NCBI GenBank assembly: GCA_015521685.1
Contig: WANT01000057.1
Coordinates: forward strand, 1 to 64,000
Length of the DNA: 64,000 nt
From: Aeropyrum sp.
GTDB taxonomy: Archaea > Thermoproteota > Thermoprotei_A > Sulfolobales > Acidilobaceae
Reading direction: 5' to 3'
The notes below the pieces were generated by a model. It saw only the letters and a list, made by a program, of their open reading frames with translations. It was not told the DNA's origin and did no database searches. Below are positions 16,461 to 29,043 of this stretch, piece by piece. Both the position numbers and the translations under genes were made by a program. How positions within the stretch are numbered: position 1 is the stretch's first letter; the number at the start of each line of letters is the position of its first letter.

Positions 16461-16778
16461 CTACTTTTCCCTATCTTTGAAAACCTGTTCTAGGCAGGAG
16501 TCCATGCATCTCTGTACTTCCTCATTGCCTATACCATGCTCTGATATGCACTTCTTAAGACATCTGCACTCCTCCGGCCCGAGGCTACCAGTCTCCAGAA
16601 TGGTGTTGGATGAAGGGTTGAAGGCTACTACTCCACAGTCTTCGAAGACGAGCTCTAGTGTATAAAGACTAACAGCTACCCCAACCAGCCTTCTCCCGAT
16701 AAGTCTGCTAATGTCGTCGACAACTCTCTCTAGCTTTGCGGTTATATTATTCTCGCCTCCATTATCGGATACTCCCAG
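16461..16778 (-). CDS. Cysteine-rich small protein with a probable CTG start (105 aa)
   Basis: I do not recognise the family. The open frame closes at TAG 16461-16463 and runs back to a TAA at 16779-16784 region; it contains no ATG, GTG or TTG until residue 92. The first codon after the in-frame TAA is CTG at 16778, and GGGTGG at 16784-16789 stands 5 bases before it. The 105-residue product looks coding. It has an amphipathic N-terminal helix (KLERVVDDISRLIGRRL), a beta segment VGVAVSLYTLELVFEDCG, then a cysteine array C48, C71, C73, C77, C91, C95 in the pattern CRCLKKC and CMDSC. Paired CxxxC helices suggest metal or disulfide stabilisation. It lies between convergent inositol synthase and the YjbQ gene, with its own TATA-like element. 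Confidence 0.65.
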   Translation of the reverse strand: MGVSDNGGENNITAKLERVVDDISRLIGRRLVGVAVSLYTLELVFEDCGVVAFNPSSNTILETGSLGPEECRCLKKCISEHGIGNEEVQRCMDSCLEQVFKDREK

Positions 16779-28219: not shown

Positions 28220-28360
28220 AGTCTACCCTAATTTACCTAGATCCAAGGGACTCGCAGTGTGTAGCTATACAATTTTTAGAGCCGGTCTAAACACTCTTTT
28301 TCCACCAGATTACTAGGTTCTAAGGGAATATTACTTAGGAGGCGTGACGTTAATTCCCTT

Positions 28361-28366
28361 GGTGAT
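28361..28366 (+). promoter_or_regulatory. Ribosome binding site that decides a CTG start for triosephosphate isomerase
   Basis: GGTGAT is fully complementary to the archaeal 16S 3' tail and lies 5 bases before CTG at 28372. Spacing to the nearest ordinary start (GTG at 28390) would be 23 bases, too far. The TGA inside this motif is in frame, so the protein cannot begin farther upstream. Confidence 0.6.
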
Positions 28367-28371
28367 CTGCT

Positions 28372-29043
28372 CTGAAACCTATCCTCGCAGTGAATATGAA
28401 AGCCTATAAAAACGCCTTTGGAGAGGGCTCCCTAGAAATAGCCAGAGCTGCCGTGAGTGTTTCTTCCCAGGTTGATGTCCGTATCATCTTGGTAGCCCCT
28501 GCCCTCAGCGCTGCTAAAGTTAATAGCGTGTATCCTGACGTCTACCTCCAGCACGCCGATCCCCTCGGCTTTGGAGCCTATACAGGCTTCATCCCAGTGG
28601 AGGCTGCCAGCATTGAGGGCCTCAAGGGTGTTATGGCTAACCATAGCGAGCACAAGCTTGTATATAGGGATGTCTCGCGCATTGTGGCGATGGCGGTCGG
28701 TGCTGGGCTTGAGACATTACTCTGCGCGGACACTCCTGGTGAGGCCGCTGGGTTAGCGTACCTATCTCCCACTATGATAGCGGTTGAGCCCCCAGAGCTC
28801 ATTGGGACGGGTATCCCGGTTTCGAAGGCTAGGCCAGAGGTTATATCGAAGGCTGTGGAAGCCGTTGCTAGCGTAAGCAATAAAATACCGGTGCTGGCGG
28901 GGGCTGGAATTACTAGTGGTGAAGACGCAGCCAGGTCCATAGAGTTGGGTGCTCGAGGCGTCCTCGTCGCGAGCGCGGTAATGAAGGCTGACAGCCCTCG
29001 GGATAAGCTACTCGAGCTTGCCGAGGGCTTAACTAGAAGATAG
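28372..29043 (+). CDS. tpiA: Triosephosphate isomerase, probable CTG start (223 aa)
   Basis: Interconverts dihydroxyacetone phosphate and glyceraldehyde-3-phosphate. Archaeal TIMs begin with a strand of the type K-P-x-x-A-V-N-x-K; here it reads [12 protein letters not shown]. That strand starts at CTG 28372, after an in-frame TGA at 28363, and carries the substrate-binding Asn and Lys. A start at GTG 28390 would cut this strand in half (leaving MNMKAY, 217 aa). From CTG the length is 223, normal for archaeal tetrameric TIM. Other features are GAYTGFIP, the catalytic His in MANHSEHK, the catalytic Glu in [12 protein letters not shown] and [14 protein letters not shown], with the phosphate loop GVLVASAV. 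Monocistronic, 54 bases before the ECF transporter. Confidence 0.92.

Follow-up and report, generated by a model that had tools for sequence, protein, structure and literature searches.

The gene encoding triosephosphate isomerase (TIM) in an Aeropyrum species very probably begins with CTG, at position 28372 of the window, the 64,000-nucleotide stretch of DNA analysed here. This initiation codon had been proposed in a first-pass annotation made from the letters alone, and comparison with related genomes lends it good support: the codon stands in the column where relatives carry a conventional start, a GGTG motif precedes it at the modal spacing of the organism, no ribosome-binding site precedes GTG 28390, the earliest conventional start available to the frame, and a start at that GTG would cost the protein part of the first β-strand of the barrel.

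The window comes from a 1.44 Mb draft genome of the genus Aeropyrum in 68 contigs (G000), for which five genomes of the same genus were available. Two of the relatives are represented by a single contig each, with genome sizes of 1,669,696 bp (G005) and 1,595,994 bp (G003). The Orc1/Cdc6 protein of the larger one is identical over 84 residues to PDB entry 2v1u, which is the A. pernix protein, and this genome was therefore taken as that of A. pernix; the 1,595,994 bp genome is presumably that of A. camini. The coordinates of the features discussed below are collected in Table 1.

Table 1. Features of the tpiA start region and candidate non-standard starts in Aeropyrum. Plain numbers are window positions; other positions are given as genome:contig:position (G000, window genome; G005, A. 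pernix; G003, A. camini).
Feature	Position	Strand	Remark
GGTGATC, Shine-Dalgarno site	28361..28367	+	sequence; spacer from GGTG to CTG 7 nt
TGA, stop in the TIM frame, bars earlier starts	28363..28365	+	sequence
CTG, proposed TIM initiation codon	28372..28374	+	aligned with TTG/ATG starts of relatives
tpiA, archaeal-type triosephosphate isomerase, 223 codons and stop	28372..29043	+	
GTG, earliest conventional start in the TIM frame, read as internal Val7	28390..28392	+	no Shine-Dalgarno site; a start here would lose part of strand 1
Second putative CTG-initiated ORF, 105 aa, no Pfam family	16461..16778	-	CTG 16778-16776; GGTG 16788-16785
Uncharacterised protein with apparent CTG start	G000:C13:8180; G005:C1:593888; G003:C1:554342	- (all three)	
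Orc1/Cdc6 with candidate CTG start	G005:C1:331435; G003:C1 near 332822		
TYW1	G000:C30 near 18220; G005:C1 near 681285	- (both)	
PTPS-like ORF	G000:C8, segment 61157-61496 of the reverse complement of the first 100 kb	-	

The tpiA start region and its counterparts in relatives

Direct reading of the frame finds TGA at 28363, followed by TCT GCT and then CTG 28372; the codons AAA CCT ATC CTC GCA lead from there to GTG 28390, which is followed by AAT ATG AAA, and the frame continues uninterrupted until it closes at TAG 29041-29043. Between the TGA and GTG 28390 the frame contains no ATG, GTG or TTG, and no conventional start thus lies between the stop and the conserved N-terminus of TIM, with LKPILAV encoded from CTG 28372 onward. 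The reading confirms what had been noted earlier about the in-frame stop, about GTG 28390 as the first ordinary start, about the LKPILAVN peptide spelled from the CTG and about the 5 nt that separate GGTGAT from this codon; measured from the end of GGTG, the distance to the CTG is 7 nt. Pfam, NCBIfam and PDB comparisons identify the frame over its full length as an archaeal-type triosephosphate isomerase (NCBIfam PRK04302, residues 2-220, E 4e-73; Pfam TIM, E 2e-34; PDB matches 1hg3, 2h6r and 1w0m).

CTG 28372 aligns with a TTG in both A. pernix and A. camini, where the sequence then reads LKPVLAVNMK, so that the comparison of tpiA 5′ ends suggested in the first-pass annotation yields a conventional first codon, TTG, in the very column of the CTG. 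The GGTG motif lies 7 nt upstream of this TTG in A. pernix and 8 nt upstream in A. camini, and in A. pernix the 20 codons preceding the TTG include no ATG, GTG or TTG. In three further relatives this column is occupied by ATG or TTG, and the window species shares the LKPxLAV motif with A. pernix and A. camini. Elsewhere in the genus, TIM starts a few codons further upstream, at TTG in genome G002 and at GTG in G004; the start site is therefore conserved only in the group formed by A. pernix, A. camini and the window species. The simplest history would derive CTG 28372 from TTG by one T-to-C transition in the window lineage. An exchange of TTG and CTG is also synonymous for leucine, and the TIM column alone would look alike if the codon were internal; the upstream stop and the Shine-Dalgarno (SD) site disfavour this internal-leucine reading.

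GGTG is the ribosome-binding motif reported for A. pernix (PMC2848648). In conserved genes of the window genome, the distance between GGTG and the start codon peaks at 7 nt (114 cases), with elevated counts from 6 to 10 nt, and the spacer of tpiA equals this modal value, placing the ribosome-binding motif of the organism at its usual distance. A search with RF01959 found no 16S rRNA gene in the window assembly and also missed that of Sulfolobus acidocaldarius, one of the controls, so the SD motif rests on the published GGTG usage and the measured spacing. Pairing was calculated with AUCACCUCA, the archaeal 16S tail sequence; the duplex upstream of CTG 28372 reaches -7.8 kcal/mol, a strength attained by about 4% of random window positions, versus -0.9 kcal/mol upstream of GTG 28390. 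Folding of the mRNA around the tpiA start gave structure no better than shuffles.

In the proposed mechanism, the crenarchaeal SD sequence GGTGATC, with its GGTG 7 nt upstream, would position the initiator tRNA (anticodon CAU) on CUG, which is a first-position near-cognate codon like the UUG and GUG starts common in Aeropyrum, and the TIM protein would presumably begin with methionine. Initiation at CTG, methionine as the first residue and any effect on the level of expression are what we infer from sequence comparison. An initiator tRNA was not identified in the scanned stretches of the window genome, by a scan that may miss intron-containing tRNAs; introns are present in the tRNA-Met(CAU) genes of A. 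pernix (PMC4307357).

Further upstream, a block AATATTACTTAGGAGGCG at window positions 28327-28349 resembles CCTTAACAGAGGCGGCG, which is similarly placed in A. pernix and A. camini. It is possibly the promoter or transcript-start region of tpiA, which would imply a short 5′ leader. The AGGAGG at 28337-28342 was considered as the SD site of a mini-ORF beginning at GTG 28344 and rejected for its spacing of 1 nt; given the similar block in a similar place in the two relatives, a promoter or transcript-start element would fit it better.

Competing readings of the tpiA start

The C at 28372 could be an assembly error or a minor variant, the true codon being TTG. The origin of the sequence, a draft genome of 68 contigs, and the TTG found at this place in A. 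pernix and A. camini would agree with such an account, but it is very improbable, as errors arising at random would not cluster at CTG codons that follow GGTG, and it is made unnecessary by a second TTG-to-CTG case in the window and by CTG candidates in the single-contig genomes of A. pernix and A. camini. The second case, a minus-strand ORF running from 16778 to 16461, is most likely the companion case mentioned in the earlier annotation. Its CTG directly follows a TAA, the first ATG, GTG or TTG occurs 91 codons into the frame, the GGTG spacer is 6 nt, and in A. pernix the orthologous ORF, 54% identical, carries TTG in the CTG column. The claim that the window holds two such cases thus stands, and the identical spacing ascribed to them is inexact, the values of 6 nt here and 7 nt at tpiA being similar only.

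Translation from GTG 28390 would produce a TIM of 217 residues without LKPILA. This codon is a conventional start, and the resulting protein would keep both substrate-binding residues, Asn8 and Lys10 (in the order M-N-M-K), which are invariant in 30 sequences. At the same time, in the AlphaFold2 model of TIM, built with 30 homologues (mean pLDDT 93.6), strand 1 of the barrel comprises residues 4-8, ILAVN, and the GTG start would delete residues 1-6, including part of this strand, together with residues of the LKPxLAV motif that the window species has in common with A. pernix and A. camini. The earlier argument from the conserved first strand is therefore upheld as regards the strand itself and needs correction as regards Asn and Lys, since both survive a start at GTG 28390; the catalytic-residue argument is accordingly weaker than the strand argument. 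The region before GTG 28390 also has no SD site, the strong one lying 25 nt upstream of it and at the right distance for the CTG, and initiation at this GTG seems very unlikely.

A single-base assembly indel that hides a start at TTG 28359 or GTG 28362, which lie just upstream and one base out of frame, is barely credible even with a comparable event being a live possibility in another ORF of the window genome (the PTPS-like ORF, see below), for these codons have no SD site at a working distance and are overlapped by GGTGATC, which suits the CTG, and the TTG behind GGTG in A. pernix and A. camini shares the column of the CTG and does not lie further upstream.

CTG and other near-cognate codons behind GGTG in the genus

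Recurrence of CTG starts was assessed with 798 orthologous ORFs, comparing 1.13 Mb of the window genome with 1.2 Mb of the A. pernix genome; the codons counted were those near a conserved N-terminus with no ATG, GTG or TTG upstream in frame and with GGTG 6-8 nt upstream. CTG was the most enriched codon behind GGTG in the window genome (4 of 20, odds ratio 14, uncorrected Fisher p 4.6e-4) and likewise in A. pernix (3 of 22, odds ratio 10, uncorrected Fisher p 5.6e-3); with a Bonferroni factor for about 61 codons, p becomes ~0.03 for the window genome, and the A. pernix value would not stand alone. Recurrence in conserved genes above chance is hence seen in two genomes with small counts (4 and 3), and the four window-genome cases include TIM itself, which prompted the test, and an ambiguous one with an ATG three codons later. 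Plain CTG enrichment near N-termini was rejected as evidence because codons adjoining real starts share such enrichment. An initial, loosely defined screen for start-less genes returned mainly antisense ORFs and chance similarity upstream, and was discarded.

Individual candidates differ in clarity. An uncharacterised conserved protein with a basic N-terminus has no Pfam or NCBIfam match and was found in 43 of the 48 genomes in the taxonomic family. In A. pernix, in A. camini and in the window species, its gene shows CTG with GGTG 7-8 nt before it; the window species has an ATG five codons downstream of the CTG, and genome G002 has ACG at the corresponding place, with GGTG 7 nt upstream. Perhaps such a conserved non-standard start could be regulatory. 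In the DUF2139 gene, A. pernix and A. camini share CTG where the window species and G002 carry GTG; as an exchange of CTG and GTG is non-synonymous, this codon is easier to reconcile with a start than with an internal position. For Orc1/Cdc6, both A. pernix and A. camini carry CTG, preceded by GGTG at 7 nt, where the window species carries TTG; this is a weaker case, since a TTG lies four codons downstream in A. pernix and a GTG upstream in A. camini; the crystallised A. pernix chain (2v1u) begins 12 residues downstream of the CTG.

The gene for TYW1 (4-demethylwyosine synthase; TIGR03972, E 6e-123) encodes conserved residues upstream of its first ATG in both the window species and A. pernix, and GGTG stands 7 nt before ATC in the former and before ATT in the latter, which suggests that translation may start at AUC or AUU. 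A further ORF, named 6-pyruvoyl-tetrahydropterin-synthase-like (PTPS-like) by resemblance, has no usual start for about 31 codons; either it would start at TTA, which GGTG precedes by 7 nt, or a G-run differs in length by one base with respect to an ATG frame just upstream. Candidate near-cognate starts other than CTG would thus include ACG, in the uncharacterised family of G002, and ATT or ATC, in TYW1 of A. pernix and the window species. It is conceivable, at somewhat short of an even chance, that Aeropyrum ribosomes generally accept near-cognate starts with GGTG about 7 nt upstream and that evolution has kept some of these starts.

Known systems and implications for Aeropyrum

In A. pernix, 52% of starts are TTG, 28% ATG and 20% GTG (Yamazaki 2006, as cited in PMC5911459), and the reason for the TTG preference of Aeropyrum is unknown according to PMC5911459. 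The proposed start of the window tpiA would share with TTG and GTG initiation in A. pernix the GGTG site, its spacing and near-cognate pairing with the initiator tRNA at the first position; it differs in its first base, C, and PMC5911459 and PMC2848648 do not list CTG as a start codon of A. pernix. Prodigal considers only ATG, GTG and TTG and excludes CTG (PMC2848648), while a codon that is synonymous with TTG or GTG incurs a penalty in StartLink (PMC9581028), so annotation pipelines would hide CTG starts. The open-licence literature yielded no report of CTG starts in Aeropyrum.

CTG-initiated small ORFs have been described in Haloferax volcanii (PMC12482152), and in Methanosarcina mazei CTG accounts for the starts of 5% of unannotated small ORFs (PMC11456600). 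These cases resemble tpiA as archaeal CTG starts, backed there by mass spectrometry or Ribo-seq and here by sequence comparison. They concern small ORFs of euryarchaea, whereas the window presents a conserved glycolytic enzyme, along with further conserved genes, in a genus of crenarchaea. CTG starts are hence already known as a rare event in archaea, and what appears to be new is the use of one by a central metabolic enzyme and the apparent recurrence across the genus. Among bacteria, infC and pcnB of E. coli have ATT starts with regulatory roles. The sigR gene of Streptomyces has a GTC start with a regulatory role (PMC5472188). Like tpiA, these bacterial genes combine a non-standard start with a conserved gene and offer a precedent for lowered or regulated initiation; unlike them, TIM has a housekeeping role, and translation of its relatives begins at ordinary starts. 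By analogy with the ATT of infC, conserved weak starts in Aeropyrum could be regulatory.

Taken together, the comparison suggests that Aeropyrum uses CTG as a rare fourth start codon, which standard gene-finding software would overlook. The tolerance of CTG points to relaxed selection on the first position of the start codon, with a strong GGTG site as backing. Should CTG be a regular minor start in Aeropyrum, conserved genes, including that of TIM and perhaps that of Orc1/Cdc6, would be mis-annotated at their N-termini or missed.
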